From Cohaesibacter intestini (GTDB lineage: Bacteria; Pseudomonadota; Alphaproteobacteria; Rhizobiales; Cohaesibacteraceae), in NCBI RefSeq assembly GCF_003324485.1, contig NZ_QODK01000003.1, forward strand, positions 434,001 through 498,000: a stretch of 64,000 nt of DNA, read 5' to 3'. This document shows positions 36,727-53,733 of this stretch, piece after piece. The position numbers were made by a program, and so were the translations under genes. A model generated the notes under the pieces. It did not search any database, had not been told where the DNA came from, and saw only the letters and a program-made list of their open reading frames with translations. How positions within the stretch are numbered: the stretch's first letter is position 1; the number at the start of each line of letters is the position of its first letter.

Positions 36727-38535
36727 ATGCGCTGGCTGCCCCAAATCTCCGCCCTGTTTGCCGTCTTTGCCATCGCCACCGGCATTTTCTGGGGGTCTTT
36801 TGGCTATTTCCAGTCCGAAGAACAGAGCAAGGCCGAAGGACGTCTGTCGCTTTATCGCTCGTCGCTGATTGCCGAGTTGCAGCGCTTCTCCCATCTGACA
36901 CACATTCTCGCCCGCGACCCTTATGTGGTGGAGATCAGCGCAGGCGGCGATACCGGTTTTCTTAACAATCGTTTCAAGGATTTTGTTGCTGCGACGGGGC
37001 TGGATTCCATCTATCTGATGAATGCCGACGGGGTGACCATCGCCGCGTCCAATGCGGGCACACCGACGAGCTTCGTCGGACAGGTCTATTCCTTCCGGCC
37101 CTACTTTCTCTCTGCCATGAAGGGCGAACAGGGCCACTTTTATGGCATTGGCGCAACCACCGGCCAACCTGGATATTTCCTTGCCGATGCGGTCAAGGAC
37201 GAAGATGGAACCATCCTTGGCGTTCTGGCCATTAAGATTGTCCTCTCCAAGGTGCAGGAGCGGTGGCGCGATGCGGGCGAGAAAATCTTGCTGACCAACC
37301 GTTCCGGCGTGGTTTTGTTGGCCTCTGAACCAGATTGGCGGTTTCGTGTGCTCGACCCGTTGACCGACAAGCAAAAGGAACGCATTCGCCTGTCACGGCA
37401 ATTCCCCGGTCAAGACCTTGAGCCACTGAATTGGCAACAACACCTGCATCCTGAGCCGAGCCGGGCCACCATTGATGGCATGTCCAGCCTTTATTTGTTC
37501 AGCAGCGATCTGCCCCATGACTGGAGCCTGCACTATTTCGCATCCGATGATCGGGCCGTCGCCCGGTCCATGCTTGTCACCGGGTTCGGAATCATGATCG
37601 CGGCGGCAATTCTGATCCTGTTCCAGTTGCAACGGACCCGACGTATTGGCGCAGCGCTGAAACGGTCCGAAGAGGAAGAAGCCCTGCTGCGTCAGGCCAA
37701 TGAACGACTGGCTGTCGAGATCAGCGAACGGCGCACAGCAGAGCAGGCCTTGCAAAAGACGCAGGACGAGCTGGAGCGGGCCAGCCGTCTGGCGGCGTTG
37801 GGGCGGCTCGCCGCGCTCGTGACCCACGAGTTGGGGCAACCCATCGCAGCCATGCGCAATTATGTTGCCGCCGCAGAAATCAGTGGAACCTCCAATCTGT
37901 CTTCCACCCTGTCGACACGGATTGGCGGTTTGGTCGACCGGATGGAGGATATCACGCGGCAATTGAAGTTCTTTGCCCGGACGGATGAAGAGAATTTCGA
38001 GGATGTCGATTTGCGTGACGCAATGCAGATTTCCCTTGGTCTGGTGGAACCCAACCTCAAGGAAAGCGGCGTTCTGGTGCACTTCTCACCACCGGTTGAG
38101 CCGATCCTTGTGCGCGGCAGTCGGTTTCGCCTTGAGCAGACCATGACCAACCTTCTGCGCAACGCGATTGATGCGTGCGAGGAGGTTGATGATCCAACAA
38201 TGACAATTGCAATGGGCCGAACGCGGCACACGGTCTGGTTCGAAATCATCGACAATGGCCACGGGCTTGGCGGCACAAGCCTTAAGGAATTGCAGGAGCC
38301 TTTCGTTACAACGCGCGAAAGTGGACGCGGTATGGGTTTGGGGCTGGCCATTTCCGCAGGCATCGTCAATGATCATGATGGCCAGATGTCCGCTTGGGAT
38401 CGACCTGAGGGTGGGGCGGTGTTCCGGGTGGAACTGCATGCGCTCGAGACCGCTTGGCCGATCAAGGACGACCGGGCGGTTGGAGCCTTGCAAGAACACC
38501 CGTCAGACGAAGTGGGAGAAGACAGGGACGCATGA
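36727..38535 (+). CDS. dctB: DctB-type sensor histidine kinase for C4-dicarboxylates
   Basis: A membrane sensor of 602 residues. A first membrane helix (about residues 5-24) and a second (about 284-303) flank a periplasmic double-Cache sensor. Then come a coiled-coil linker (about 308-355), the phosphoacceptor His367 in VTHELGQPIAAM (the DctB-type H box), and the ATPase with N box RNAIDACE, DNGHGLG and GRGMGLGLAIS. By family it senses C4-dicarboxylates or related acids and phosphorylates DctD. It overlaps dctD by 4 bp (ATGA), implying translational coupling. The adjacent TRAP transporter is the evident target. Confidence 0.93.
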   Translation: MRWLPQISALFAVFAIATGIFWGSFGYFQSEEQSKAEGRLSLYRSSLIAELQRFSHLTHILARDPYVVEISAGGDTGFLNNRFKDFVAATGLDSIYLMNADGVTIAASNAGTPTSFVGQVYSFRPYFLSAMKGEQGHFYGIGATTGQPGYFLADAVKDEDGTILGVLAIKIVLSKVQERWRDAGEKILLTNRSGVVLLASEPDWRFRVLDPLTDKQKERIRLSRQFPGQDLEPLNWQQHLHPEPSRATIDGMSSLYLFSSDLPHDWSLHYFASDDRAVARSMLVTGFGIMIAAAILILFQLQRTRRIGAALKRSEEEEALLRQANERLAVEISERRTAEQALQKTQDELERASRLAALGRLAALVTHELGQPIAAMRNYVAAAEISGTSNLSSTLSTRIGGLVDRMEDITRQLKFFARTDEENFEDVDLRDAMQISLGLVEPNLKESGVLVHFSPPVEPILVRGSRFRLEQTMTNLLRNAIDACEEVDDPTMTIAMGRTRHTVWFEIIDNGHGLGGTSLKELQEPFVTTRESGRGMGLGLAISAGIVNDHDGQMSAWDRPEGGAVFRVELHALETAWPIKDDRAVGALQEHPSDEVGEDRDA

Positions 38536-39932
38536 AGGAAGACCAGCAAATCAGTGTCTTGATCGTCGATGACGACAAGGCCATGCGCCAATCGCTGACC
38601 GACCTGATGGAAGCTGCTGGTTGGCGCGTCGAAGCGGTGGCCCGCGCCAATCTGGTGCCGGACCGGCTGGCCGAGTTCCAGCCCGACGCCATCCTGTCCG
38701 ATGTTCGCATGCCCGGCATGTCAGGTCTTGATCTTCTGGCCAGTCTCGACAAGAGCATGTCGCCGCCCTTGGTGCTGATTTCCGCCCATGGTGACATTCC
38801 GATGGCCGTGCAGGCCATTCAGGACGGCGCCTACAGCTTCGTTGAAAAGCCCTGTGAGCCGCGCCGCCTGTTGACCATCCTGCGCAATGCCGCCAATCAA
38901 TATCGCATCACCCTCAACAATGCCCGCTTGAAAGCCCGACTGAGGCGCCTGTCCGGTCTCGACCGGATGCTGCTGGGGCAAAGCGAGGAAATCGAGGCGC
39001 TGCGCCGCGATATTGTCGACCTTGCGGATGTCCCTGCCGCTGTGTTGATCAAGGGAGAAACCGGCACCGGCAAGGAACTGGTCGCCCGCGCGCTGCATGA
39101 TCTGGGCCCCAATGCCGACGGACCTTTTCTGGCGATCAATTGCGCTGTGCTTTCGCCCGATACCTTTGAGAGCGAAATGTTCGGCACATCCGGTGGCAAG
39201 GATGGACGCCTGCTGGCCGCCTCTGGCGGGACATTGTTTCTCGATGAGGTCTGCTCCTGCCCGGTGCCGGTGCAAGCGCAGTTGCTGCGGGTAATCGAGA
39301 ATAAGCGCATTATGCCGGTCGGAGCCTCCACGCCAATCCCGGTCAGTTTCCGCGTGGTGTCTGCCAGCAAGGAGGATATGTCCAAGGCCGTCTCCGATGG
39401 CCTCTTGCGGCAGGACTTCCTGTTTCGCATCAACACCTTTGTGATGACCGTGCCGCCGTTGCGCCAGCGGCGTGACGACATTGCCCTTCTGATGACCCAC
39501 TTTATGGGGGAATATGCCCGTGTCTATGGTGCCGATTGGCCACAGAAGGGATCTGAGCAAAGGCCAGACAAGGATGTAGAGCAGGGGGCAGAAATGGGCT
39601 TCGCGCTGGGATCGGAGGATCTTGCTGCATTGATGAGCCACGACTGGCCGGGCAATGTGCGCGAATTGCGTTCTGTGGCCGAGCGGCGCGTGCTGGGGGC
39701 GCGTCGAGGTCGAACATCGATGATGCAGATCATCGAAAGCGACCAGTTGATCGCAGGCGTCCCAAGCACCCTGCGCGAGGCCGTCGCCGCCTTTGAGCGC
39801 GAGTTGATCGGCAAAGCCATTCGCGAGCATGAGGGCCGGATGGATGCCGCTGCCGAATCTTTGGGCATTGGCCGACGCACCTTGAACGAGAAGATCGTGA
39901 AACTTGGCCTCAACAAGGACGCTTTGCTCTGA
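38532..39932 (+). CDS. dctD: DctD-like response regulator lacking the GAFTGA loop
   Basis: A 466-residue NtrC-family regulator. The receiver domain (1-120) has the acidic pocket and phosphoacceptor Asp57 (ILSDVRMPG). The AAA+ domain has Walker A GETGTGKE (175-182), Walker B LFLDEV and the arginine-finger region LFRINTF followed by VPPLRQRRDDI. The C-terminal Fis-type helix-turn-helix includes AAESLGIGRRTLNEKI. The sigma-54-contacting GAFTGA loop is absent: ESEMFG (213-218) is followed by TSGGKDGRL, about eight residues shorter than normal. So the protein probably acts on a sigma-70-type holoenzyme, as described for Rhodobacter capsulatus NtrC, or as a repressor. It is co-transcribed with dctB. 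Confidence 0.9.
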   Translation: MKEDQQISVLIVDDDKAMRQSLTDLMEAAGWRVEAVARANLVPDRLAEFQPDAILSDVRMPGMSGLDLLASLDKSMSPPLVLISAHGDIPMAVQAIQDGAYSFVEKPCEPRRLLTILRNAANQYRITLNNARLKARLRRLSGLDRMLLGQSEEIEALRRDIVDLADVPAAVLIKGETGTGKELVARALHDLGPNADGPFLAINCAVLSPDTFESEMFGTSGGKDGRLLAASGGTLFLDEVCSCPVPVQAQLLRVIENKRIMPVGASTPIPVSFRVVSASKEDMSKAVSDGLLRQDFLFRINTFVMTVPPLRQRRDDIALLMTHFMGEYARVYGADWPQKGSEQRPDKDVEQGAEMGFALGSEDLAALMSHDWPGNVRELRSVAERRVLGARRGRTSMMQIIESDQLIAGVPSTLREAVAAFERELIGKAIREHEGRMDAAAESLGIGRRTLNEKIVKLGLNKDALL

Positions 39933-40076: not shown

Positions 40077-41087
40077 ATGCGCAAATTCCTAGGCCAGGCG
40101 GCTCTGGTCGCCCTTTCTGTCACCTTTGTTTCCGAAGCCTATGCCACGGAGTGGAACGTATCCCTCTGGGGTAAACGCCGTGCTTTCACCGAGCATGTCG
40201 AGAAATTGGCTGAGCTGGTCAGTGCCAAAACCAATGGCGAGTTTACCCTCAATATCAGCTATGGCGGTCTGTCCAAGAACCGTGAGAATCTCGATGGTAT
40301 TTCCATCGGTGCGTTTGAAATGGCTCAGTTCTGCGCTGGCTATCACCGCGACAAAAACCCATCCATCACCGTTCTTGAGTTGCCTTTCCTTGGCGTTTCC
40401 ACGCTCAAGCAGGAAACCGAGCTGTCGATGGCACTCTACAAGCATCCTGCTGTTGTCAAGGATCTGGCCCGCTGGAACGCAACGCTTCTGATGCCATCGC
40501 CACTGCCGCAATATAATATTGTCGGTGTGGGCGACGCACCTTCCAAGCTTTCCGACTTTGAAGGTCTGTCCGTGCGTGCCACCGGTGGCATTGGCAAGGC
40601 GATGGAAACCGTTGGCGCTGTCCCGACCTCCATGTCCGCAACCGAAGTCCGTCAGGCCATGGATAGCGGTGTGATCAAGGCTGCCAGCTTTGCACCGCAT
40701 GCCCACATGTCCTTTGGCACCATCGAGAAAGCCAACTGGTGGACCACCAACCTCAATCCAGGCACCGTGAACTGCCCGGTCGTGGTCAACACCGACGCGC
40801 TGAATGATCTGTCCGATGCGCATCGTGACGCCCTGCTTGGTTCTGTTGAAGAGTCTCTGGCCTATTACATCGACTTCTACAACAACAAGACCATGAAGGC
40901 CTGGGGCCCTGCACTTGAAGAGCGTGGCATTAAACAGGTGACCTTCTCCGATGACCAGATTGCCGCCTTCAAGAAAGCTGCGGCTGCCCCGGCAGCAGAG
41001 GCTTGGGTCACGGAAAATACCGCTCGCGGGCTGCCGGCTCAGGAGCTGTATGACATGATCACCGGCATGATTGCCGAGACAAAATAA
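40077..41087 (+). CDS. dctP: TRAP transporter substrate-binding protein (DctP family)
   Basis: A periplasmic solute receptor of 336 residues that delivers its ligand to the DctQM membrane subunits. A signal peptide (MRKFLGQAALVALSVTFVSEAYA) is followed by the two-lobed DctP fold. The conserved substrate-carboxylate Arg lies in the SVRATGGIGKAMETVGA region. The ATG at 40077 follows GGGAGG; the upstream in-frame ATG at 40056 lacks a ribosome site. Its position after dctBD suggests a C4-dicarboxylate or similar organic acid. A hairpin with a T-run after the stop should raise its level relative to dctQM. Confidence 0.93.
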   Translation: MRKFLGQAALVALSVTFVSEAYATEWNVSLWGKRRAFTEHVEKLAELVSAKTNGEFTLNISYGGLSKNRENLDGISIGAFEMAQFCAGYHRDKNPSITVLELPFLGVSTLKQETELSMALYKHPAVVKDLARWNATLLMPSPLPQYNIVGVGDAPSKLSDFEGLSVRATGGIGKAMETVGAVPTSMSATEVRQAMDSGVIKAASFAPHAHMSFGTIEKANWWTTNLNPGTVNCPVVVNTDALNDLSDAHRDALLGSVEESLAYYIDFYNNKTMKAWGPALEERGIKQVTFSDDQIAAFKKAAAAPAAEAWVTENTARGLPAQELYDMITGMIAETK

Positions 41088-41097
41088 CCCTCCAGAG

Positions 41098-41137
41098 GCA
41101 GCGCCTGTCCGTTCGCGACGGGCGCTGCTTCTTTTTT
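41098..41137 (+). terminator. Intercistronic attenuator between dctP and dctQ
   Basis: GCAGCGCC pairs with GGCGCTGC (41098-41128), with further pairing inside the loop, followed by TTCTTTTTT. Transcription terminator form, placed within an evident operon. Confidence 0.75.
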
Positions 41138-41165
41138 CTGGCTTTAAAGATGAAGGAGGTCTGCG

Positions 41166-41798
41166 ATGGCAGGTTCCTCTTTGCTGTTGTCTGATGACAG
41201 CGCCCTTGGCCGCACCGACCGTTTTCTCGAGAAAATCGAAGCCTTCTTCGCATTGCTGAGCGGTCTCACCGTATTTGTTCTGATGGTGCTGGCTGTGCTC
41301 TCCGTAGGAGGGCGCAATATCCTGAATCAACCCTTGCCGGGCTATGTCGACTGGATCGAGCAGGCCATGCCGCTGATCGCCTTCATGGGCATCGCCTATG
41401 TCCAGCGTTCTGGCGGGCATATCCGCATGGATATGGTGGTCAGTACCCTGGGTGGCCGCCCGCTCTATCTGGTGGAACTGCTCACCACACTGTTCATTCT
41501 GGGCTTGATGCTGCTGCTTGTCTGGGGCACATGGTCCCATTTCGAACGCAGCTTCGACTTTGCCATGCCGATGTGGAGCCGTGACAGCTCGATGGACATC
41601 GCCTTGCCGATATGGCCGGCCAAGCTGTTGGCTCCGGTTGCCTTCTCGCTGCTCTGTGTGCGGCTTGTTGTGCAGGTTTGGGCCTATCTGCGTGCCTTTA
41701 TCCGCAATGATACGTCCCCGATTGCTGTGCCGCTTGTTGCCGATGCGGCTCAATTGGCCGCAGAAGAAGCCGGACATGTTTCCGGCCATGACCAATAG
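41166..41798 (+). CDS. dctQ: TRAP transporter small permease (DctQ family)
   Basis: A membrane protein of 210 residues with four hydrophobic helices (about 35-57, 68-88, 105-130 and 150-172). The family-typical wording includes GRNILNQPLPGYVDWIEQ and AYVQRSGGHIRMDM. It joins DctM in the sodium-driven symporter. A strong AAGGAGGT ribosome site precedes the ATG. Its stop is 11 bp before dctM. Confidence 0.93.
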   Translation: MAGSSLLLSDDSALGRTDRFLEKIEAFFALLSGLTVFVLMVLAVLSVGGRNILNQPLPGYVDWIEQAMPLIAFMGIAYVQRSGGHIRMDMVVSTLGGRPLYLVELLTTLFILGLMLLLVWGTWSHFERSFDFAMPMWSRDSSMDIALPIWPAKLLAPVAFSLLCVRLVVQVWAYLRAFIRNDTSPIAVPLVADAAQLAAEEAGHVSGHDQ

Positions 41799-41809
41799 GA
41801 GAGCCCCAT

Positions 41810-43213
41810 ATGGAACCGATTGATATTGGTCTGGCCGTCTCGGGCGGTATGCTCGTCATGGTCCTGTTGGGCATGCGTGTTGCGTTCGCGGCCGGTGCTG
41901 CGGGGATGGTCGGCCTGATCTGGATCTTCTGGGCGAAATTCGGCTACAACCCGGATCGTTTTATGAAGGCCGTTACCGTGGCCGTCAAAACCGCCGGGCA
42001 GGTGCCCCATTCGAAGGTCTCATCGCAGGCTCTCAGCCTCATTCCGACCTTCATCCTGATTGGCTATCTGGCCTATTATGCCGGCCTGACCCGCGCTTTG
42101 TTCGAGGCTGCCAAGCGCTGGTTCGCTTGGGTGCCGGGGGGCTTGGCCGTCTCCACCGTCTTTGCCACCGCTGGCTTTGCCGCTGTGTCCGGGGCTTCTG
42201 TTGCGACCTCGGCGGTCTTTGCCCGCATCGCCATCCCCGAGATGCTCAAAATTGGCTATGACAAGCGCTTTGCCGCCGGTGTTGTGGCCGCTGGTGGCAC
42301 CTTGGCGTCGCTCATCCCACCCTCAGCGATCCTGGTGATCTATGCCATCATCGTGGAACAAGATGTCGGCAAGCTGCTCTTGGCTGGCTTCATTCCCGGT
42401 GCTTTTTCTGCGGTCATTTATGGGCTGCTGATCATTGGCATGGCCATGACCATCAAGGGCTTTGGTCCTCCTGTGTCAGGCTTCACTTGGAAAGAACGCT
42501 TTGCCGCTTTGCCACCGGCTCTGCCGATCTTGTTTGTGGTCTTCACCATCATCTTCTTCGTCTATAACCCCTTTGGCGGCGATGCCTTTGGAACGCCAAC
42601 CGAGGGAGGGGCGATTGGGGCCTTTGTGGTCTTCTTGATGGCCCTCAAGCATGGCATGCGCTGGTCAGAATTCAAGGACGCTCTTCTTGAAACCGCTAAG
42701 CTCAGCGTGATGATCTTCACCATCATTTGGGGTGTGCTGATCTATGTCCGCTTCCTTGGTTTTGCCAACCTGCCGGGAGCCTTTGCCGATTGGATCACCT
42801 CGCTGACCATGTCGCCGATGCTGATCCTGATCTGCATCCTGCTGGCCTATGCGGTGCTTGGCATGTTCATGGATGCCATCGGCATGCTGCTGCTCACCTT
42901 GCCCGTCGTCTATCCGGCAGTCATGGCTTTGAATGGTGGCGAGTTCGTCTCCGCCGCTGACAGCACCTTCGGGATGTCAGGCCCGATGTGTGCCATCTGG
43001 TTCGGTATTCTAGTGGTCAAAATGGCCGAATTTTGCCTGATCACCCCGCCCATTGGCCTCAACTGCTTCGTTGTGGCCGGGGTTCGGGATGATCTGTCTG
43101 TGCAGGATGTGTTCAAGGGCGTTACCCCCTTCTTCATCGCTGATGCAGCCACCATCGCTTTGCTGGTTGCTTTCCCGGCCATTGTGCTTTGGTTGCCAAG
43201 TCAGGCCGGCTGA
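41810..43213 (+). CDS. dctM: TRAP transporter large permease (DctM family)
   Basis: The main translocation subunit, 467 residues with about twelve membrane segments. Conserved features include GVVAAGGTLASLIPPSA near residue 160, and repeats with GMFMDAIGMLLLTLPVVYP and ITPPIGLNCFVVAG, where sodium and the elevator hairpins lie in known DctM structures. It is preceded by GGAGAG and ends the dctPQM operon at a strong terminator. The N-terminal half carries an insertion rich in charged residues after the first helix (VKTAGQVPHSKVSSQAL), which is common in one DctM subfamily. Confidence 0.94.
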   Translation: MEPIDIGLAVSGGMLVMVLLGMRVAFAAGAAGMVGLIWIFWAKFGYNPDRFMKAVTVAVKTAGQVPHSKVSSQALSLIPTFILIGYLAYYAGLTRALFEAAKRWFAWVPGGLAVSTVFATAGFAAVSGASVATSAVFARIAIPEMLKIGYDKRFAAGVVAAGGTLASLIPPSAILVIYAIIVEQDVGKLLLAGFIPGAFSAVIYGLLIIGMAMTIKGFGPPVSGFTWKERFAALPPALPILFVVFTIIFFVYNPFGGDAFGTPTEGGAIGAFVVFLMALKHGMRWSEFKDALLETAKLSVMIFTIIWGVLIYVRFLGFANLPGAFADWITSLTMSPMLILICILLAYAVLGMFMDAIGMLLLTLPVVYPAVMALNGGEFVSAADSTFGMSGPMCAIWFGILVVKMAEFCLITPPIGLNCFVVAGVRDDLSVQDVFKGVTPFFIADAATIALLVAFPAIVLWLPSQAG

Positions 43214-43240: not shown

Positions 43241-43275
43241 AAGGGCGGGAACCAAAAGCGGTTTCCGCCCTTTTT
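43241..43275 (+). terminator. Terminator of the dctPQM operon
   Basis: AAGGGCGGGAACC pairs with GGTTTCCGCCCTT, with one G-T wobble, and runs into TTTTT. Confidence 0.9.
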
Positions 43276-43774
43276 ACTTGCTGACAAAAGTAAGAGTGCG
43301 TTTTTGTCGCAGCCCGCTGCCTCGGCAGGAATGCCGGGACTCAGGCTCGGCAAAATCCACGAATTGGTCGCAATTTTTGCGGGTTAGAACGATGTAAATA
43401 AGTCCAATTGCCCATAAATTAACTGCTATCTGTCTGATCTTAATCCGGTTTTTCGCCTATTAGCTGTTGCTGATACCCAACAGGCCGGTTTCGGATGTTA
43501 TTTATTTAAAAGTATAAATTTATTATGAAATAGAATTCACTCAACAAAATACGGATTTCTACGCTGTGTATACATGACTTACCTTACGGAAAGGTCTTTG
43601 ACCTAATGCATGGATTCTTGCGCCTTGTGAAACTAAAGTTGAGCATGTGTAGACTCGCGTTCAAAGGGCGTCGGAGGACCTGATTGTTGAGGCCGAAAGC
43701 AGACCTTGGCGATCTGAAAGGCGATTTTGGGAGTGGGTTGCGCATCGACAACCGACACAAGGATCAAGGTCGCA
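43276..43774. other. AT-rich upstream region of the hydrogenase operon
   Basis: About 500 bp, clearly AT-richer than the coding sequence around it, especially 43380-43660. It should contain the promoter for the flavoprotein-hydrogenase pair. I found no complete FNR box and no -24/-12 element. No gene is supported. Confidence 0.4.
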
Positions 43775-45772
43775 ATGGCACAGGTTGTGTATGGCGTCTG
43801 GGATGGAGTGGTCCATGATGCGCGCAATGGCGCGATCGCTGAGGAAACTCCTCTCTCGCAACTGAAGAATTTCAATGAGTTTGACGATGGCAACGACATC
43901 CGCGCCTTCTTTGCGGACAGGGGCTTTTTCGTCTTTGATGAGACAGTCAGTCTGATCGACTCCCTTTATCGTTATATGGACAAGGCAGCGACACAGTCCT
44001 GCGGTGCCTGTACCCCCTGCCGGATGGGCACGGTGCTGGTGCGTGATGCGCTCGACAATATGCGACGGGGCCTCGACTCGGCACTGACCTTTGACGATAT
44101 CGAGATGCTGGCCGAACAAATGACCGAAACCTCGCTTTGTGGTCTTGGTCAGACCTGCTCGGTCGCCTTGCTTGACGTCCTGCATCATTTCCGCGACAAG
44201 CTCGAGGCCGAAGTCGCCAGCCACATGCCGATCCGCGCCCAGCATGGCATGGTTTACATGACCGCTCCTTGCATCGAGGCCTGTCCCTCCAAGGTCAATG
44301 TACCCCGCTATATCGACTATATCCGCGATGGACGCCCGAAAAGCTCACTGGCGGTCGTGCTTCAAAAATACCCGATGGCCGCGACCTGTGGCCGGGTTTG
44401 TGTGCGCTATTGCGAGCAGGCTTGCCGCCGCAAGTTTGTTGATGAGGCAGTCGGCATCAAATTGCTCAAACGCTATGTCGCAGACCAGCAAAAGGGACCC
44501 GCAGCCCTGAAATTCAGCCGCGACATGATCAAGAAACCCCTTGATGACAGCATGAAGGTGGCCGTTATCGGCGCGGGGCCTGCCGGGATTTCCTGCGCTT
44601 ACCACCTGTTGCTGCATGGCTACAAGGTCGACGTGTTTGAAAAGCTTGAACAGGCCGGTGGCATGGCCCAGATCGGTATCCCCAGCTACCGATTGCCCAA
44701 GGACACGCTGGCAATGGAAACCGACATTATCGTCGATCTCGGCGGCCGCTTCCTGTTTGGCCAGCAATTGGGCCGAGATTTCACCATCGATGATCTGTTT
44801 GCGCGTGGTTACAAGGCGGTCTTTCTTGGGCTGGGTTGCCAAAAAGGCACGACCCTTGGCGTCAAGGGCGAGGACACCAAGGCGAAAGGCTATTTTAGCG
44901 GCATCGAGTTTTTGCTCAAGGTCCACGATCATGTCAACGAGACAGAGGATCTGCGCCTCAAGGGCAATGTCGTTGTTGTCGGAGGCGGTAATGTGGCGAT
45001 GGATTGCGTCCGCTCGGCCATCCGGTTGGGCGCTGACGACGTCCATTTGATCTACCGCCGCACCCGTGGGGCGATGCCTGCCGACACCGAGGAGGTGGAT
45101 GCCGCCGACGAGGAAGACATCCACTTCCACACTTTGTGCAATCCAACCCGCATTCTGACCGAACATGGCAAGGTGGTTGGCATAGAGCTGATCCGAATGG
45201 AGGAAACCGAGCCGGACGAGAGCGGGCGGCGCAGCGTCCGCCCGGTTCCGGGGACGGAATTCACCATGCCTTGCGACACGGTGATTGCCGCCATCGGCCA
45301 GCAGGTCGAAGATGGGGCAATCATCGAGCAGGGGGGGATCAATCTGGATCGCTGGAACTGCATCGAAGCGGCCAAATCGATGGCCACCTCACGGCCCGGC
45401 GTCTTTGCGGGCGGTGATTGCGTTACCGGACCATCAACCCTGATCTATGCCATGGCGGCTGGCCTGACGGCGGCCCGCAACATCAACGATTGGATCCAGC
45501 TCGGCACCATCCGCTTTTTCAAACGCTCCCGGATGCGCCATCTCCTCTCGGACAACAAATTCCTTGCCGATGATGTGGTTCAGACGCCGGTTCGCGCGGC
45601 CTATCGGGTGCATAATCCGGAACTCGACCCCGACTTGCGCAAGCATATGTTTGGAGAAGTAGAAGGCACTATCTCCAGTCAGGATGCCTATGCCGAGGCC
45701 CAGCGCTGCATGCGTTGCTATCGGGTCTATTCTGTTGTGACCAAACATTCCATCCCCGAAGGAGCGGACTGA
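43775..45772 (+). CDS. Fused NuoF-C-terminal / GltD-like FAD and Fe-S oxidoreductase, hydrogenase partner
   Basis: A 665-residue electron-transfer protein. Residues 60-130 match the C-terminal iron-sulfur domain of NuoF/HydB, with cluster ligands Cys76, Cys79, Cys82 and Cys122. The FMN- and NADH-binding body of NuoF is missing. Residues 155-650 match GltD/NfnB-type flavoproteins: two N-terminal [4Fe-4S] clusters (Cys166, Cys170, Cys205, Cys209, Cys213, Cys217 and others), an FAD motif VIGAGPAGISCAY and a second dinucleotide motif VVGGGNVAMDC. GltD relatives use NADPH, so it may pass electrons between NADP(H) and the hydrogenase encoded 3 bp downstream. The ATG at 43775 behind AAGG is preferred over 43727. 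The nicotinamide specificity is inferred. Confidence 0.85.
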   Translation: MAQVVYGVWDGVVHDARNGAIAEETPLSQLKNFNEFDDGNDIRAFFADRGFFVFDETVSLIDSLYRYMDKAATQSCGACTPCRMGTVLVRDALDNMRRGLDSALTFDDIEMLAEQMTETSLCGLGQTCSVALLDVLHHFRDKLEAEVASHMPIRAQHGMVYMTAPCIEACPSKVNVPRYIDYIRDGRPKSSLAVVLQKYPMAATCGRVCVRYCEQACRRKFVDEAVGIKLLKRYVADQQKGPAALKFSRDMIKKPLDDSMKVAVIGAGPAGISCAYHLLLHGYKVDVFEKLEQAGGMAQIGIPSYRLPKDTLAMETDIIVDLGGRFLFGQQLGRDFTIDDLFARGYKAVFLGLGCQKGTTLGVKGEDTKAKGYFSGIEFLLKVHDHVNETEDLRLKGNVVVVGGGNVAMDCVRSAIRLGADDVHLIYRRTRGAMPADTEEVDAADEEDIHFHTLCNPTRILTEHGKVVGIELIRMEETEPDESGRRSVRPVPGTEFTMPCDTVIAAIGQQVEDGAIIEQGGINLDRWNCIEAAKSMATSRPGVFAGGDCVTGPSTLIYAMAAGLTAARNINDWIQLGTIRFFKRSRMRHLLSDNKFLADDVVQTPVRAAYRVHNPELDPDLRKHMFGEVEGTISSQDAYAEAQRCMRCYRVYSVVTKHSIPEGAD

Positions 45773-45775
45773 GCC

Positions 45776-47635
45776 ATGTGTACACGCGATCTGACGCACC
45801 ATGCCCACCGCGACCCCGATGAGGCGACCATCTCGCTGACCATCAACAAAAGCCAGTGCAAGGCGTTCCCGGACGAGACGATCCTTGCCTGCGCACGGCG
45901 TCATGACATTTACATCCCGACCCTTTGCGAGCTGGATGATATCGACCATACACCGGGCACCTGTCGTGTCTGTGTTGTCGAGATCACACAGGCTGGTAAG
46001 GACAAGACAAAAATTGTCACCGCCTGTGACACCCCCGTGCGCGAGGGACTCGATGTCCAGACCCGGACCCAACGGGTCCGCGACATGCAAAAGCTGCAGG
46101 TCGAGTTGCTGATGGCTGACCATTTGCAGGATTGTGCCACCTGCAACCGGCATGGGGACTGCGAGTTGCAGGATCTGGCGCAGTTTGTCGGTTTGAAGGA
46201 AAACCGTTTCTTTGATCGCGCCAAGGTCGAGGCCCGCGAGGTTGATCGCTCATCACCTGCCTTGGTGCGTGACATGCGCCGCTGTGTGCGATGCCAGCGA
46301 TGCGTCGCGGTCTGCCGCCAGCACCAGCAAGTCGATGCTCTCGTCATGGCGGGGGTCGGGGTCAACCGGCTGGTCCAGATGCGCGATGGGGTGGATGCCG
46401 CCAATTCCATTTGTGTCTCTTGCGGTCAATGCGTGCTGGTCTGCCCGACCGGAGCTTTGGGCGAGCGGGATGAAACCGATCGGGCATTGGACTTTATTTG
46501 CGACCCCGAGCTGACAACGGTGGTCCAGTTTGCACCAGCCGTCCGCGTCGCCTTTGGTGAGGAATTTGGTCTGCCCGCCGGTACCAATGTGGAAGGCCAG
46601 ATCATCGCCGCTTGCCGCAAGATCGGTATCGACATTGTACTCGACACCAACTTTGCAGCCGATGTGGTGATCATGGAGGAGGGGATCGAGCTTTTGAACC
46701 GCCTGAAGGAAGGCAAGAAGCCCACTTTCACCTCCTGCTGTCCCGCATGGATCAATTTCGCCGAGATGCATTATCCCGACATCCTGCCAATGCTATCCTC
46801 GACCAAATCACCGCAACAGGTTCTCTCTACCCTGTCCAAGACCTACCTGCCTGACAAGGTCGGCGTGCCTGCTGACAAGATCCGCGTCATTTCGATCATG
46901 CCCTGCACGGCCAAGAAAGAAGAGGCGGCGCGGCCGCAACTGGCGACCAATGGTATGCCCGACACCGATGTGGTTCTGACAACCCGCGAGTTTGCACGCC
47001 TGCTGCGGCGCGAGGGGATCGATCTCAAGACCATCAAACCCTCAAATTTTGATAATCCCTATATGAGCGAATATTCCGGTGCCGGGGCCATTTTCGGCAC
47101 CACTGGTGGCGTCATGGAAGCGGCTGTCCGCACGCTTTATGCGGTGATCAATGACAAGGAACTGGACCAAATCGAGCTGGAACAATTGCGCGGCTTCGAT
47201 GGAGTTCGCTCAGCCAACGTCGATCTCGGCGGCCCATTCGGCAAGGTCAAGGTCGCCATGTGTCATGGCTTGGGGGAAACGCGGGCATTGGTCGAGGCAA
47301 TCCGCAAGGGAGAGGTAGATTTTGACTTTATCGAAATCATGGCCTGTCCCGGTGGCTGCGTCGATGGTGGCGGATCCCTGCGGTCCAAGAAAGCCTATCT
47401 CGACAAGGCCATGGCGCGCCGTGCGACGATCTACAACGTGGATCGGAAGCAGCTTGTTCGCCAGTCGCACAAGAATCTTCAGGTTCAGTCGCTCTATCGC
47501 GATTTTCTTGAAGCGCCCAACTCGGACAAGGCCCATGCCTTGCTCCATACCCACTATTCAGATCGCAGGCGCGACATCCACCAGACGGTGCGCGAAATGT
47601 GGGATCGGCTGACCATGAGCACCATTGTCTACTGA
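45776..47635 (+). CDS. hydA: [FeFe]-hydrogenase catalytic subunit
   Basis: A 619-residue group-A iron hydrogenase. Accessory clusters appear in order: [2Fe-2S] at Cys51, Cys63, Cys66 and Cys84; the His/Cys cluster at His116, Cys120, Cys123 and Cys129; and two [4Fe-4S] sets at Cys170-180 and Cys213-223. The H-cluster domain has all three signatures: TSCCPAW (Cys321, Cys322), MPCTAKKEE (Cys377) and EIMACPGGCVDGGG (Cys524, Cys528). It reduces protons or oxidises H2 in the cytoplasm; no signal peptide is present. It is translationally close to the GltD-like partner. The maturases HydE, HydF and HydG are not in this window but must exist elsewhere for activity. Confidence 0.93.
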   Translation: MCTRDLTHHAHRDPDEATISLTINKSQCKAFPDETILACARRHDIYIPTLCELDDIDHTPGTCRVCVVEITQAGKDKTKIVTACDTPVREGLDVQTRTQRVRDMQKLQVELLMADHLQDCATCNRHGDCELQDLAQFVGLKENRFFDRAKVEAREVDRSSPALVRDMRRCVRCQRCVAVCRQHQQVDALVMAGVGVNRLVQMRDGVDAANSICVSCGQCVLVCPTGALGERDETDRALDFICDPELTTVVQFAPAVRVAFGEEFGLPAGTNVEGQIIAACRKIGIDIVLDTNFAADVVIMEEGIELLNRLKEGKKPTFTSCCPAWINFAEMHYPDILPMLSSTKSPQQVLSTLSKTYLPDKVGVPADKIRVISIMPCTAKKEEAARPQLATNGMPDTDVVLTTREFARLLRREGIDLKTIKPSNFDNPYMSEYSGAGAIFGTTGGVMEAAVRTLYAVINDKELDQIELEQLRGFDGVRSANVDLGGPFGKVKVAMCHGLGETRALVEAIRKGEVDFDFIEIMACPGGCVDGGGSLRSKKAYLDKAMARRATIYNVDRKQLVRQSHKNLQVQSLYRDFLEAPNSDKAHALLHTHYSDRRRDIHQTVREMWDRLTMSTIVY

Positions 47636-47645
47636 AAAGGCGATG

Positions 47646-47682
47646 CAACCCGGCAAACAGGCTGCCGGGTTGTTTTGTCTTC
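47646..47682 (+). terminator. Terminator of the hydrogenase operon
   Basis: CAACCCGGCA (47646-47655) pairs with TGCCGGGTTG (47663-47672) and is followed by TTTTGTCTTCTT. Confidence 0.85.
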
Positions 47683-48452: not shown

Positions 48453-49214
48453 TCACTTGGTCAGTTCGATCTCGCGCGCTACAAAGTGACTGAGATCGCG
48501 ATAGCCAGCCGCAGTGAAATGCACTTTGTCCTTGGCGCGCAGCAACCGTTTCTTGCCATCCGCGCCCGGACCGCTCATCTGGAACTTGCCATTCTTGGAG
48601 GCGAACCAGGACCAGCTTTCAATATAGGTCACCCCATTGGCCTTTGCCCGTTCGGCGAAAATACCATTGAGATATTGATAGCCTTTGGCGAAGTTGGATT
48701 TTCCAACAATCGGCAGGCCGACCCAATAGACCTTGCGCCCCGGCTGCTTGACCGATTGCAGCACCGTGTCGATCCGCTCCTTATAGGCTTTCAACCATCC
48801 TTCGGATTGATAATGGTGGCGTTTCTTGCTGCTGCGTATTGTCTGAAGATCGTTGGCACCGAACATCAGGATATAGATCGTAGACTTGTCTTTTTTGCTG
48901 ATCTTTTTGGCAGCACTCGACCAGTCATAGCGGTCATAACGGACAAGTCCGGTATTGACGCGGCTATACTTGGTCACTTTCAGATTGACCGATTTATCAT
49001 GGCGAGAAAGTTGCACCAGACCAGCATATAGTCCGTCTGCAAGGGAATCTCCGAGCACCGCTATCGACACCACTTTGGGTGGGTTCTTGTCTTCAGCCGA
49101 AGTATCACTGGTCTTCTCTGCTGCCACGCCAAGGCTCATGGTGACGAGGGTCAGCAGGGTGATGACAATCCGCGCCAAAGGGCGCAGAAACATGCCATTC
49201 TTCAAGTCGCTCAT
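48453..49214 (-). CDS. Secreted SGNH hydrolase (DUF459-like)
   Basis: A 253-residue periplasmic or secreted esterase-fold protein. A signal peptide or anchor (about residues 10-31) is followed by the SGNH motifs: block I VLGDSLADGL with Ser57, block III MFGANDLQTI, and block V DKVHFTAAGY with Asp229 and His232. The wording of blocks I and III fits the DUF459/OpgC-linked group that acts on carbohydrate O-acyl groups. It is last in a same-strand set with a large SGNH protein, an MBOAT acyltransferase and a small membrane protein, so a role in envelope O-acetylation is likely. The substrate is unknown. Confidence 0.85.
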   Translation of the reverse strand: MSDLKNGMFLRPLARIVITLLTLVTMSLGVAAEKTSDTSAEDKNPPKVVSIAVLGDSLADGLYAGLVQLSRHDKSVNLKVTKYSRVNTGLVRYDRYDWSSAAKKISKKDKSTIYILMFGANDLQTIRSSKKRHHYQSEGWLKAYKERIDTVLQSVKQPGRKVYWVGLPIVGKSNFAKGYQYLNGIFAERAKANGVTYIESWSWFASKNGKFQMSGPGADGKKRLLRAKDKVHFTAAGYRDLSHFVAREIELTK

Positions 49215-49431
49215 GTCGCAATCCCGGTTAACAATATGCTAAACATGGTGCAGCAGCCTATGTCCGATTGATGCAGCGTGCAAGCGGTCCGAAGCGAATA
49301 TTTTAGATAGTGTTAATCCTGCATCAGGTTCATTTCAGATCCGGTATCAAACCTGTCTGGTCAGCTGGGTCTGATCTTGGCCTGTCGTTGTGAAAAAGCC
49401 TTTTGCATCAAGGATTCCGTGGCTCATTGCC

Positions 49432-49692
49432 TCAGAATTCATGATCCTTCAGCGACTGGACCCAATCCTGTACGGTCTCGCTAATTGTCGTGGTGCCCAG
49501 CGCTTCCATCCAGCCATTCCAAGTCTCACAGGCCACAACAATTTGCTCGCTGAGGGGAGAGATCGGCAAATCATAGGACCAGCTCACCAACCCGTTTGAC
49601 TGGAACAGAGCCAGCGCCAACGTGGCGAACACCAGAGCGATCAACGCGCTGCGGACACGGAGCATGGTGTGGTCGGGATGGGACTTGGCCAT
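49432..49692 (-). CDS. Small single-pass membrane protein of the O-acylation locus
   Basis: An 86-residue hypothetical protein, 10 bp after the MBOAT gene on the same strand, with an AGGAG ribosome site. One hydrophobic helix (about residues 12-31, SALIALVFATLALALFQ) puts the C-terminal two thirds in the periplasm under the positive-inside rule. No known family is recognised. Position and spacing indicate co-translation with the acyltransferase, so it may be an accessory subunit. Confidence 0.75.
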   Translation of the reverse strand: MAKSHPDHTMLRVRSALIALVFATLALALFQSNGLVSWSYDLPISPLSEQIVVACETWNGWMEALGTTTISETVQDWVQSLKDHEF

Positions 49693-49702
49693 AGGTCTGC
49701 TC

Positions 49703-51109
49703 CTAGAACTGGAAATAGATGAAGGGGGCTGTGCCCGATGGTGCGATCCATTGGATCACCAGCAATCCTGCGGCAAAAGCCAAGGCCATGCCGACGGTTC
49801 CCAGTCGCGACAGCATCACATAGCTGCGCTCATAAGTACGGGCCGGGACAAACTGGCCAATGGCGCAGGTCAGGATCAACCCGACAATGAAGGGCGTCAG
49901 CATGGAAATGTCAGTGGTGCCTTGCAGGATCAGCGCCAGATAATCCGTCGCCAGCTGAAGGTTTGGTGCGCGAAAGAAGATCCAGGCAAAGCAGACGACA
50001 TGAAAGGTGAACAGCACGCCAACAATCCGCCCCACGCCCCGTCGGGTGAGGCGAGACAGACCTGTCAGACGCTCTACGATCAAGGCCGAACCATGGATGA
50101 TGCCCCAGATAACAAAGGTCATCGCGGCCCCGTGCCAAATGCCGCCCAGCAGCATGGTCAGGAACAGATTGCGATAGGTCCCCACCACGCCGCCGCGATT
50201 GCCTCCGAGCGGAATATAGAGATAGTCACGCAGCCATTGCGACAGCGAGATGTGCCAGCGGGTCCAGAATTCCTGCAAACTCGCAGACCGATAGGGCTGG
50301 TTGAAATTGCGCTTGAAGTGATAGCCAAGCAGGGCCGCAATACCGATGGCTATGTCGCTATAGCCGGAAAAGTCGCAATAGATCTGCCCCGCATAGGCAT
50401 AGACCCCCATCACCAGCTCTAGGCTCGACGCCTGTTCAGGGGCCAGAAACACCTCGTCGACATAGAGAGTGGCGAGATAGTTGGCCAAAACCATCTTCTT
50501 GAACAGGCCGATCAAGATCAGGAAAAAGCCCTTGCCCATCATCAATCGTGTCAGAACCGGCTTGGTGTCCAGCTGTGGCATGAAGTGGGCCGCGCGCACA
50601 ATCGGGCCTGCGACCAGCTGTGGGAAGAAAGAGATGTAGAGCGCCAGATCAACAAAGGAACGCGTTGCATGGATCTGCTTGCGGTAAATGTCGACAACGT
50701 AAGAGATGCTCTGGAAGGTGAAGAAGGAAATCCCCACCGGCAAGATGATTTCAAGGAACGGCAAATCCCGCTCAAGGCCGATCATCACAAACAGCTCCCT
50801 GAGGCTGTCCATGAAGAAACCGGCATATTTGAAATAGCCCAGCAAGCCCAGATCGATCACGACCACTGCCGCAAGGACCCGTTTGCGGTGGCGATCATTG
50901 TCGCTGCTGTCGATCAACAGGCCGCCGATATAACTGATCACCGCATTGAACAGCAGCAGCAGACAGAAGGACCAGTCCCAATAGCCATAGAAGAAATAGC
51001 TGGCCACCAGTAAAAACAGCTTGCGCATGGACGCCTGTCCGCGCATCAGCCACGAAAGGGAAAAGACGACAAGAAAGAAAAGGCCGAAATCGACGGTTGG
51101 AAACAGCAT
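49703..51109 (-). CDS. MBOAT-family O-acyltransferase (AlgI/PatA-like)
   Basis: An integral membrane acyltransferase of 468 residues with about eleven helices. The family-defining segments are present: a VGISFFTFQSISYVVDIYR element, QLVAGPIVRAAHFMPQL, WHISLSQWLRDYLYIPLGGN split by short loops, and GGIWHGAAMTF with the catalytic His. Homologues such as AlgI and PatA move acetyl groups across the inner membrane to polysaccharide or peptidoglycan, handing them to an SGNH partner. Here the large SGNH gene lies directly upstream and a small SGNH gene downstream, which supports that model. The acceptor polymer is not known. Confidence 0.93.
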   Translation of the reverse strand: MLFPTVDFGLFFLVVFSLSWLMRGQASMRKLFLLVASYFFYGYWDWSFCLLLLFNAVISYIGGLLIDSSDNDRHRKRVLAAVVVIDLGLLGYFKYAGFFMDSLRELFVMIGLERDLPFLEIILPVGISFFTFQSISYVVDIYRKQIHATRSFVDLALYISFFPQLVAGPIVRAAHFMPQLDTKPVLTRLMMGKGFFLILIGLFKKMVLANYLATLYVDEVFLAPEQASSLELVMGVYAYAGQIYCDFSGYSDIAIGIAALLGYHFKRNFNQPYRSASLQEFWTRWHISLSQWLRDYLYIPLGGNRGGVVGTYRNLFLTMLLGGIWHGAAMTFVIWGIIHGSALIVERLTGLSRLTRRGVGRIVGVLFTFHVVCFAWIFFRAPNLQLATDYLALILQGTTDISMLTPFIVGLILTCAIGQFVPARTYERSYVMLSRLGTVGMALAFAAGLLVIQWIAPSGTAPFIYFQF

Positions 51110-51240
51110 GAATGATCTTGACTATCGCAGAAATAAACAGGAGACCCGTCCCGTCATTGAACAAATATAATCAGACGGGACAGGGCCGAAATCGTGTCGG
51201 AAGCGGCGAGATTCTGGCGCTTCGTTGCAACCATAGAGGA

Positions 51241-53733
51241 TTAATTCGAAGCGATTTTCAAGCTGTTTTTGATGGTCCGTTCCAGATAGTCAACAAAGGC
51301 CGCAGCACTGCGATCATAGCCTTTGCCGGTCAGGTGAACCCGGTCCTTGGCGGCCAGTTTCTGCCCAGCCCAGCGGGTCACGCCACAGCGCCCGCCCATT
51401 GCCGAGGACCAATCCCAATAGAAGCCGGAATAGTCTTTTGCCATGTCTTTGAGCGTGTTGCGTACTGCGGGCAGTTTGTTGGGGGTGTACCAGCCACCGC
51501 CGCAAGACAGTTTGCTGGACCGGCGGCGTGCACCATCGGCAGGGCCAATGAACATCATTGCTGCATTTGGCGCGGCATCCTGCATCTTGTCGACCAGACC
51601 GCCAGCCATCCTGCGATAGGAAGCCATGTTTAGATTGTCGTTATAGCCTTCATTGGTGCCATAGCCATAGATGATCAGATCTGGATCAAGACGTTTGATG
51701 TCGTTGGCCAACAGCCCATCCGACCAGCGGTTGGTGACGGCCACGGTCGCCCCGGCAATGCCGAAATTCACATATTGAATGCCGGGCTTGTCCTTGCCAG
51801 TGGCCCAGTTCAGAATGGTGGTCTTGCCCCCGCCATTATGGGTGACGCTCAAGCTCGAGGAGCGACCATCAATGCGGACAAGTTTTGAGCCCGGCTTGGA
51901 GGCTCGTGCCGAAACCTTCTTCGAACCACCATCGGTCCGAATGGTGGCGCTGCCCTGACCCGGTCCGACATAAAGGGTAACGGTTGCCCAATCGAACGCG
52001 CCCTTTTGGGAGGTCAGAGTCATCTTCGCCCCCGGAGACGAGGAACTGACCCGCACCCCGGAAAGGCCATAGGGGCCGCTCTTGGTTTTAAGGGAGTTGG
52101 CCGACGACCAGCCGCGTCCGGCGCTGAGTTTCAAGCCATCCGCATGCGCCCATTTGTAAGCCTTGGCCGGAATCACCGCCCCGCGACCGGCATCGCCATA
52201 CATCGCCTGCAGGCGACGGCGAATGCCTCGGGTGAAACTATCCGACGCAATGTGACTGTCTCCAACATGCAAAATGGTGATCGGTTGGTTCAGGCTGCCT
52301 GCTTTTAAAGCACGCATCTTTGCCAGGAACCGGTTGCTATTGCCAGAGATCGGCCCAACTGGCTGCGGTTGCGGGTCTGCTTCAAAGCCAGCAGGAGGCG
52401 CAATCGAGGCGACCTTGTTATCGACAGCTTCGCTCAGATTGGCCGGCCGCGCCTTTGGCAGTTCGTGTAAAAGCGTCTGCTTGTTTTCTTCAACCTGTAC
52501 CGCAATCGGATCGGAAGGCGCCAGCGCTGCGACCTTGATCGGCACGGTTTCAACCTTGGTTGGCTTCAAAGCCTCAGACGCATTTGCTTCGGAGGCATCC
52601 GCCTCACGGGCATCGACCTTGCGAACGTCAACAGTCGCTGGTGTCTGGGTTTGGGCGCCAGGAAGCGCATCCGTCAAGGCAAGCTTTGGTGCATCCGGTT
52701 TCAGGCTCGGGGCCAACGTTTCGACTTTTTCACGAAATGCCAGTTCGGACTCTGGTGTCACGCCAATGGCTGGCAGATTGCTTGCGATCACAATCGAGCC
52801 GGTTTCAAGTGGCACGCTGAGATAAAGAGAGGGATCTACCGCCAAACCCGCCGGATAGATCGGCTCGGCCTGCTTCATGTCCAGTTGCGCCAAGGTCCAG
52901 CTATTGCCGATCCGTGCTTGTGAATAGAGGCTTTTCAGATCCGCAATGGACTGCGACATGTCGCGGTTCTTTTGCCGCAAATGTTGCAGTTCCAGCATCA
53001 TCGAATGATTGAGCGCTTCCAGCTTCGAGATCTTTTGGGCACTCTGACGCAGAGCATCGAGAGGCGCGCGATCCGATAGCGGTGCAAATTCCTGACTGCT
53101 CTGTTTGGTCGGGGCGGTGAGGCCTGGAATTTCCTGCCCATTATTGAGCATGTACAAGCCCGTGATCGACACGCCTGCCAGCACGCTAAGCGAGAGCAGC
53201 CCTGTCATCAGCATTGCTGTCAGACCACGCTCCTGCGGCGCAGGGGCTGATCGGTGCGGCGGGCGCACGGCCGCGGTCGCCCGAGGCTGCTGCGAACGCT
53301 GCAGACGCTGTTGCTGTGGGTGAGGGGCGTGATGCTGGGCCTGAGGACGCGTTTGGGGCCGCATCTGTGGCTGATGCTCAACAGGGCGATAGCCATGACG
53401 GGCATGTTCGACCGGTGCACCCGGATTGGGTGCATAGGCATGGCCCTGAATAGGCGGATGGCCGTGCGCACTTGGCATCGCTGCTTGCTGGTGTGCCCGG
53501 GGGTGGCCCTGAGGCTGGCCCTGAAGTTGGCGTTGAGCACCGGGCAGGTGATGGATTTGCGCCGAGGGAGCAGGTCCCTGCTGGCCGTGACCCTGTTGTC
53601 CCTGAGGGAAAGGATGATTGCCTGCGGAATGTTGTCCAGTTGTCGGGCCCTGTGGATGCTGCTGCGCTCGTTCGGCCATGGCCGGGTGAGCGGGATCGAC
53701 GGGTGCCATCTGTTTGAACTGGGTCTGAGACAT
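51241..53733 (-). CDS. Large membrane-anchored SGNH protein with Pro/Gln/His-rich cytoplasmic tail
   Basis: An 830-residue protein. Residues 1-165 are low-complexity, rich in Gln, His and Pro, and lie before the single membrane helix (about 171-197), so they are cytoplasmic. The periplasmic part has a coiled-coil-like stretch (about 225-265), a long Ala/Glu/Val linker and a C-terminal SGNH domain. Its motifs are GDSHIAS with Ser493, GYGTNEGYN, and DRVHLTGKGY with Asp797 and His800. The fold resembles PatB/AlgX-type acetyl-transfer partners. It is first in the MBOAT gene set, 131 bp ahead of the acyltransferase. The role of the repetitive tail is unknown; it may bind metal or polymer, or mediate assembly. 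Confidence 0.88.
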   Translation of the reverse strand: MSQTQFKQMAPVDPAHPAMAERAQQHPQGPTTGQHSAGNHPFPQGQQGHGQQGPAPSAQIHHLPGAQRQLQGQPQGHPRAHQQAAMPSAHGHPPIQGHAYAPNPGAPVEHARHGYRPVEHQPQMRPQTRPQAQHHAPHPQQQRLQRSQQPRATAAVRPPHRSAPAPQERGLTAMLMTGLLSLSVLAGVSITGLYMLNNGQEIPGLTAPTKQSSQEFAPLSDRAPLDALRQSAQKISKLEALNHSMMLELQHLRQKNRDMSQSIADLKSLYSQARIGNSWTLAQLDMKQAEPIYPAGLAVDPSLYLSVPLETGSIVIASNLPAIGVTPESELAFREKVETLAPSLKPDAPKLALTDALPGAQTQTPATVDVRKVDAREADASEANASEALKPTKVETVPIKVAALAPSDPIAVQVEENKQTLLHELPKARPANLSEAVDNKVASIAPPAGFEADPQPQPVGPISGNSNRFLAKMRALKAGSLNQPITILHVGDSHIASDSFTRGIRRRLQAMYGDAGRGAVIPAKAYKWAHADGLKLSAGRGWSSANSLKTKSGPYGLSGVRVSSSSPGAKMTLTSQKGAFDWATVTLYVGPGQGSATIRTDGGSKKVSARASKPGSKLVRIDGRSSSLSVTHNGGGKTTILNWATGKDKPGIQYVNFGIAGATVAVTNRWSDGLLANDIKRLDPDLIIYGYGTNEGYNDNLNMASYRRMAGGLVDKMQDAAPNAAMMFIGPADGARRRSSKLSCGGGWYTPNKLPAVRNTLKDMAKDYSGFYWDWSSAMGGRCGVTRWAGQKLAAKDRVHLTGKGYDRSAAAFVDYLERTIKNSLKIASN

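Follow-up and report, generated by a model that had tools for sequence, protein, structure and literature searches.

A GltD-type flavoprotein fusion paired with an intact [FeFe]-hydrogenase-family catalytic subunit in a Cohaesibacter genome without detectable HydE, HydF, or HydG

Introduction

The H-cluster of [FeFe]-hydrogenases is regarded as strictly dependent on three maturases, HydE, HydF, and HydG, for its assembly. Here, we describe a gene pair from Cohaesibacter intestini that joins a catalytic subunit of this family (HydA) to an electron-input subunit fused from parts of NuoF and a GltD/NfnB-like flavoprotein, in a host genome in which none of the three maturases was detected. The pair lies on the plus strand of a 64,000-nucleotide stretch of contig NZ_QODK01000003.1 (positions 434,001 to 498,000), referred to as the window; coordinates without a prefix are window positions. 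Related systems have been described. Group A2 of HydDB holds the "glutamate synthase-linked (putative)" [FeFe]-hydrogenases, whose role is listed as undetermined (PMC5037454). Bifurcating HydABC enzymes (A3) are defined by a HydB with a flavin mononucleotide (FMN)/NADH domain together with HydC (NuoE). HydA homologues without HydEFG have been noted in Entamoeba and, in passing, in R. rubrum and "a few species" (PMC4967309; PMC3226654).

The window pair resembles A2 most closely, an M3-type HydA adjoining a gene for a GltD-type flavoprotein. However, the GltD gene is upstream and its product carries the C-terminal [4Fe-4S] part of NuoF only, whereas the HydDB rule places a GltD/GltA-type protein immediately downstream and excludes NuoF (PMC5037454); in addition, the maturases are missing from the host genome. 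The HydA aligns almost end to end with HydABC chains (7q4v_A and 8a6t_A; groups A3/A6 of A. woodii, T. kivui, and T. maritima), and the fusion retains the NuoF-type [4Fe-4S] domain, but the HydB FMN/NADH domain, HydC, and HydEFG are absent and GltD replaces the electron input. The fusion matches NfnA over residues 151 to 648 and StnC over residues 162 to 648, yet its partner is HydA and not the NADH-binding flavoprotein found in NfnABC, StnABC, and NfnAB. In contrast to the maturase-less homologues noted earlier, this HydA belongs to a large clade with a fully intact active site and, in most members, a dedicated transporter. Our search of the open-access literature, subscription papers being outside its reach, turned up nothing published on this clade, the intact site, or the transporter.

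Results and Discussion

The fusion gene (positions 43775 to 45772; 665 amino acids) is separated by 3 bp from hydA (45776 to 47635; ATG start; 619 amino acids), and both are free of frameshifts and stops. Although the longest frame of the fusion starts at a TTG at 43727, the alignment of its relatives begins at the ATG at 43775, the start given in the original prediction, which is preceded by a ribosome-binding-like AAGGATCAAGGT. Domain searches gave the order NADH_4Fe-4S (PF10589), Fer4_20 (PF14691), and Pyr_redox_2 in the fusion, with the FMN/NADH domain PF01512 not among the domains listed, and Fer2, NADH-G_4Fe-4S, a Fer4 pair, Fe_hyd_lg_C, and Fe_hyd_SSU in HydA; the two-gene unit contains no gene for a NuoE partner. 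The architecture that had originally been predicted from the sequence, a truncated NuoF fused to a GltD/NfnB-like flavoprotein directly before HydA, is thus borne out, as are the listed cysteines of both proteins, which are invariant in the fusion-linked relatives.

HydA scored 518.5 bits against TIGR02512 ([FeFe]-hydrogenase group A; curated cutoff, 405.95) and 722.3 bits against NF040763 (NADH-dependent group A6), below the 765-bit cutoff of the latter. Its predicted fold matches HydABC and CpI with a template modeling score of about 0.8. The diiron-contacting motifs are intact, and these motifs, the group A score, and the HydA tree place it apart from Nar1/NARF-like and sensory proteins, as anticipated.

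The H-cluster motifs of HydA are L1, TSCCPAW (46730 to 46750), with Cys321 (CpI C299, proton relay) and Cys322 (CpI C300); L2, IMPCTAKKEE (46895 to 46924), with Met375, Cys377, and Lys380; and L3, IEIMACPGGCVDGGG (47330 to 47374), with Met522, Cys524, and Cys528. CpI numbering was taken from the alignment, and residue roles follow those of CpI. In the fusion, the NuoF-type [4Fe-4S] site (Cys76, 79, 82, and 122; 44000 to 44140) is invariant across 40 aligned rows, and the GltD/DPD-type Fe-S (iron-sulfur) region (Cys166, 170, 205, 209, 213, and 217; 44270 to 44425) is likewise invariant. A first Rossmann motif, VIGAGPAGISCAYHL (44564 to 44608), is assigned to flavin adenine dinucleotide (FAD) and a second, GGGNVAMDC...YRR (44981 to 45106), to NAD(P)H, its YRR suggesting an NADP-type specificity. 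A C-terminal CMRC motif (45707 to 45718; Cys645 and Cys648 invariant) lies within the part that the fusion shares with the NfnABC and StnABC subunits. The structure model of the fusion is weak (mean predicted local distance difference test score [pLDDT], 68), and in its poor regions, residues 163 to 245 and 582 to 665, domain placement follows the sequence. Among solved structures, the fusion is closest to subunits of NfnABC, StnABC, and NfnI that bind NADP(H), which makes the proposed NADP(H) linkage likely.

The original prediction had named absence of HydE, HydF, and HydG from the genome as a refutation of the proposed hydrogenase. Models for the three proteins gave nothing over the cutoff in the host genome, which is 99.4% complete in 27 contigs. 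Among 53 genomes, the same searches found HydG and HydF in 20, always together (E < 1e-145), and HydE, searched in 41, in 12, all of which also had HydG and HydF; these 12 were all of the HydG- and HydF-bearing genomes covered by the HydE search. These counts are of genome entries, some of which repeat one genome (e.g., G312 and G203, with identical matches). A total of 29 HydA-bearing genomes, the host included, had no HydE, HydF, or HydG under the models that found them in relatives; they are called maturase-less here. They include four closed, single-contig genomes (G149, G175, G197, and G289), and closed, single-contig genomes of the host genus are among the 29. An ordinary HydEFG-matured hydrogenase is therefore excluded for the host genome, as far as our searches reach. 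The absence of HydEFG does not, however, make HydA a non-hydrogenase, given that its active site is conserved in full. Weak matches of the maturase models in the host were read from their sequences as relatives of CofG/CofH, BioB, MoaA, Der, MnmE, Era, and FeoB and were rejected. A radical S-adenosylmethionine (SAM) pair on host contig C5 (L001:68-2715; L and G numbers are our loci and genomes), read from its sequence as CofG/CofH-like, suggests coenzyme F420 synthesis.

All four H-cluster cysteines (Cys322, 377, 524, and 528; CpI C300, C355, C499, and C503) are present in 29/29 maturase-less HydAs. Proton-path residues C321, E302, E305, and S341, together with K380, M375, and M522, are equally invariant, and R309 is retained in 28. 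HydEFG-served and canonical HydAs have 83 invariant positions in common, and 81 of these are the same in every maturase-less sequence. No fully disjoint column separates maturase-less from maturase-bearing HydAs, and the main maturase-less clade shows 8 fixed lineage-specific changes in 619 positions, none of them at a ligand. Between the window and its sister genome G175, the ratio of nonsynonymous to synonymous substitution rates (dN/dS) was 0.036 for hydA (dS, 0.83) and 0.024 for the fusion (dS, about 0.8 to 0.9). Both genes are under strong purifying selection, which, with the conserved active site, argues against decay.

The pairing is not unique to the window; the two genes occur as a conserved unit at some 58 loci, most of them proteobacterial. 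Clade HydAs share 62 to 81% identity (78 to 80% between the window and named Cohaesibacter species), and the same fusion gene lies directly upstream wherever the contig extends far enough. Hosts are mainly Alphaproteobacteria (Rhodovulum, Rhodobacter, Tropicimonas, Rhodopseudomonas, Rhodobium, Pleomorphomonas, Blastochloris, and Magnetospirillum), with some Beta- and Gammaproteobacteria and a few metagenome-assembled genomes (MAGs) labeled otherwise; the gene also occurs in other genomes of the host genus. The expected rarity of [FeFe]-hydrogenases in the class holds in part: of 298 genomes sampled from the host's order, 19 carried HydA, and these fell in 6 of 122 genera. No plasmid-borne copy of the clade HydA was found in PLSDB (best match, <43% identity). 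By label, MAG contigs L043 (Verrucomicrobium), L045 (Eisenbacteria), and L059 (Alphaproteobacteria) carry the operon; HydF was not found for these MAGs, which are possibly incomplete or misbinned.

In a quick IQ-TREE phylogeny of 87 HydAs, with Shimodaira-Hasegawa-like approximate likelihood ratio test (SH-aLRT) values as the only support, the fusion-linked HydAs form a single clade (SH-aLRT, 100). Within it, 27 of the 29 maturase-less HydAs and that of MAG L023, in which HydF was not found, group together (SH-aLRT, 100), nested among HydEFG-bearing lineages. A second maturase-less group, Blastochloris and the Xanthobacteraceae genome Astr-EGSB, is similarly nested. Two state changes suffice to account for maturase presence and absence on this tree. 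Maturase genes adjoin the operon in the basal lineages G165, G266, and Propionivibrio, and loss of HydEFG is therefore a simpler direction than gain, although the counts alone cannot separate the two.

Where the flanks of the operon were informative, they held either the HydG/F/E genes, in many cases accompanied by an aspartase-type lyase gene, or an NMT1-type ATP-binding cassette (ABC) importer, never both. The importer, comprising a substrate-binding protein (SBP), a permease, and an ATPase (L022:11897-14330, with equivalents in L019-L033, L058, L060, L075, and L035-L042), is encoded close to the operon in 26 of the 29 maturase-less genomes. One of these is Astr-EGSB, where it has 46% identity and begins some 4 kb downstream of hydA, with a TonB-dependent receptor gene in between. 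Importer-linked fusion-hydA loci are not flanked by maturases, yet Pleomorphomonas, with the importer near the operon, has HydEFG and a second HydA elsewhere in its genome. SBPs of >50% identity occurred in 13 of the 298 genomes of the order, all 13 of them HydA positive and with the SBP a few kilobases from hydA; the next best matches were at ≤42%. This association has a Fisher P value of 1.5e-18, which ignores shared ancestry. Nearly all importer SBPs carry a twin-arginine motif in the signal region. The permease is nearest, far below the cutoff, to SaoP of a predicted "selenocysteine-assisted organometallic" system, and paralogues of the importer in Cohaesibacter cluster with NnrS and a TonB copper-receptor-like protein; both likenesses hint at a metal-complex ligand. 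Neither HydEFG nor the importer was found in the window genome (G000) or G175, where HydA is still strongly selected; these two genomes share a tripartite ATP-independent periplasmic (TRAP) transporter upstream of the operon. In Blastochloris, a YnjB-type ABC binding protein is near the operon.

Several neighborhoods hold further genes. Paralogous NMT1-type importers of Cohaesibacter lie at L189:5186-13466 and L190:2026-16000, the latter with a DUF364 putative heavy-metal chelation protein. In Astr-EGSB, the TonB-dependent receptor whose gene separates hydA from that of the SBP is of the siderophore type (L048:13507-18587). Directly upstream of the Blastochloris fusion-hydA pair (L046:1638-7684) are genes for a radical-SAM/SPASM-like protein, a YnjB-type SBP and permease, and a TolA/TonB-like protein. 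We rejected the radical-SAM/SPASM gene as a general alternative maturase; it was in no other locus retrieved. Genes read as UbiU/UbiV-, UbiD/UbiX-, and NnrS-like near the operon in Oryzibacter (L194:1159-6847) and Pleomorphomonas (L037:15785-21559) suggest an anaerobic-metabolism setting.

The explanation that we tentatively favor, short of an even chance, is that the pair encodes an NADP(H)-linked enzyme of the [FeFe]-hydrogenase family, with two subunits and of the A2 kind, that retains an H-cluster-like site and belongs to a HydEFG-less clade. Judging from the domains and the similarity to NfnABC and StnABC, electrons would pass between NADP(H), bound at the GltD-like FAD, and the [4Fe-4S] part of the H-cluster by way of the GltD domain's own Fe-S sites, the NuoF-type [4Fe-4S] cluster, and the NuoG-like Fe-S chain within HydA, in that order. 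The pocket would still hold a diiron subsite or close analogue, reaching HydA by a route independent of HydEFG, and H2 and H+ would be interconverted with NADP(H); in most relatives, the nearby ABC importer may deliver a cofactor, precursor, or substrate. Several points weigh against this explanation. Residue conservation favors a diiron subsite, but biosynthetic knowledge opposes it: no chemistry is known that builds the subsite without HydG-type tyrosine cleavage. HypD, of [NiFe] maturation, was missing in the host and in three other maturase-less genomes, the closed or near-closed G149, G197, and G256, and on that ground we rejected it as a general substitute source of CO and CN. The window lineage and Blastochloris hold HydA without the NMT1-type importer, and an importer-fed cofactor therefore cannot explain the whole clade. 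The maturase-less R. rubrum enzyme has been described as "probably inactive or plays a different role" (literature summarized in PMC4967309). A more specific proposal, that the clade dropped diiron-subsite biosynthesis and imports an organometallic cofactor or precursor, mostly through the ABC importer with its Tat-exported SBP and in the window lineage by another route, is in our view unlikely.

A repurposed reductase is a serious rival and somewhat less probable than the hydrogenase-family enzyme. Its pocket would hold only a [4Fe-4S] cluster, or another ligand, and NADPH electrons would go to an imported small molecule other than protons, brought in by the ABC importer in most relatives, the YnjB-type system in Blastochloris, and the TRAP transporter in the window. 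The absence of HydEFG fits this proposal, as do the importer beside 26 of the 29 operons, the restriction of its close homologues within the order to the vicinity of this HydA, and the other transporters found where it is missing. Against it stand the invariant proton-transfer residues and diiron-contacting Lys, Met, and Cys and the small number of fixed changes; moreover, transporters are frequent neighbors in these genomes, and the three-family pattern may be chance. The bifurcation that had been considered possible would yield an NADP(H)/ferredoxin hydrogenase, and GltD/NfnL-type flavoproteins do bifurcate in NfnAB, NfnABC, and StnABC, the solved systems nearest to the fusion. Bifurcation is unsupported here because the unit lacks both the FMN/NADH domain of NuoF and a NuoE partner; HydEFG is also missing, and we consider such an enzyme improbable, the complex probably working without bifurcation. 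Overlooked maturases seem more improbable still. The host genome is in 27 contigs, so that assembly gaps or an unsequenced plasmid could hide them, and highly divergent enzymes could score below the models, but the maturase-less genomes of the host's genus and order agree at 96 to 100% completeness, four of them in single contigs, and the models readily detected HydG and HydF in relatives, while the best weak host matches belong to other known families. Least credible is a vestigial pair left decaying by a recent loss of HydEFG. Maturase loss normally abolishes activity, but the low dN/dS values, the uninterrupted frames, and the retention of 81 of 83 key positions across several alphaproteobacterial families already contradict decay.

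At least two dozen species, among them several named isolates that can be cultured, keep a perfect hydrogenase site without HydEFG, which makes two questions testable: whether the diiron cofactor has another source and what purpose GltD-linked [FeFe]-hydrogenases serve. Either an alternative synthesis or acquisition of the cofactor exists or the enzyme performs a different job, and the mutual exclusion of maturation genes and a dedicated importer offers a concrete genetic lead. Annotation of hydrogenases from HydA alone may overstate H2 metabolism.

The TRAP genes dctP-dctQ-dctM (40077 to 43213, plus strand; same position in G175, L188) were rejected as operon members, since a terminator-like hairpin closing their operon (43241 to 43272) and about 500 bp lie between them and the fusion gene. 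With a second such hairpin directly after hydA (47645 to 47673), the fusion-hydA pair looks like its own transcription unit. Upstream and also on the plus strand, a DctB-like sensor kinase and a DctD-like sigma-54 regulator (36727 to 39932) probably serve the TRAP system. No convincing FNR box was seen in the window promoter; L022, L024, L029, L030, and L032 share an FNR/DNR-like site, TTGCGCTGGATCA(A/T), about 90 to 150 bp before the fusion start. On the minus strand (48453 to 53733), genes for a DUF459/SGNH hydrolase, an MBOAT acyltransferase, and a second large SGNH-like protein likely serve polysaccharide O-acetylation.

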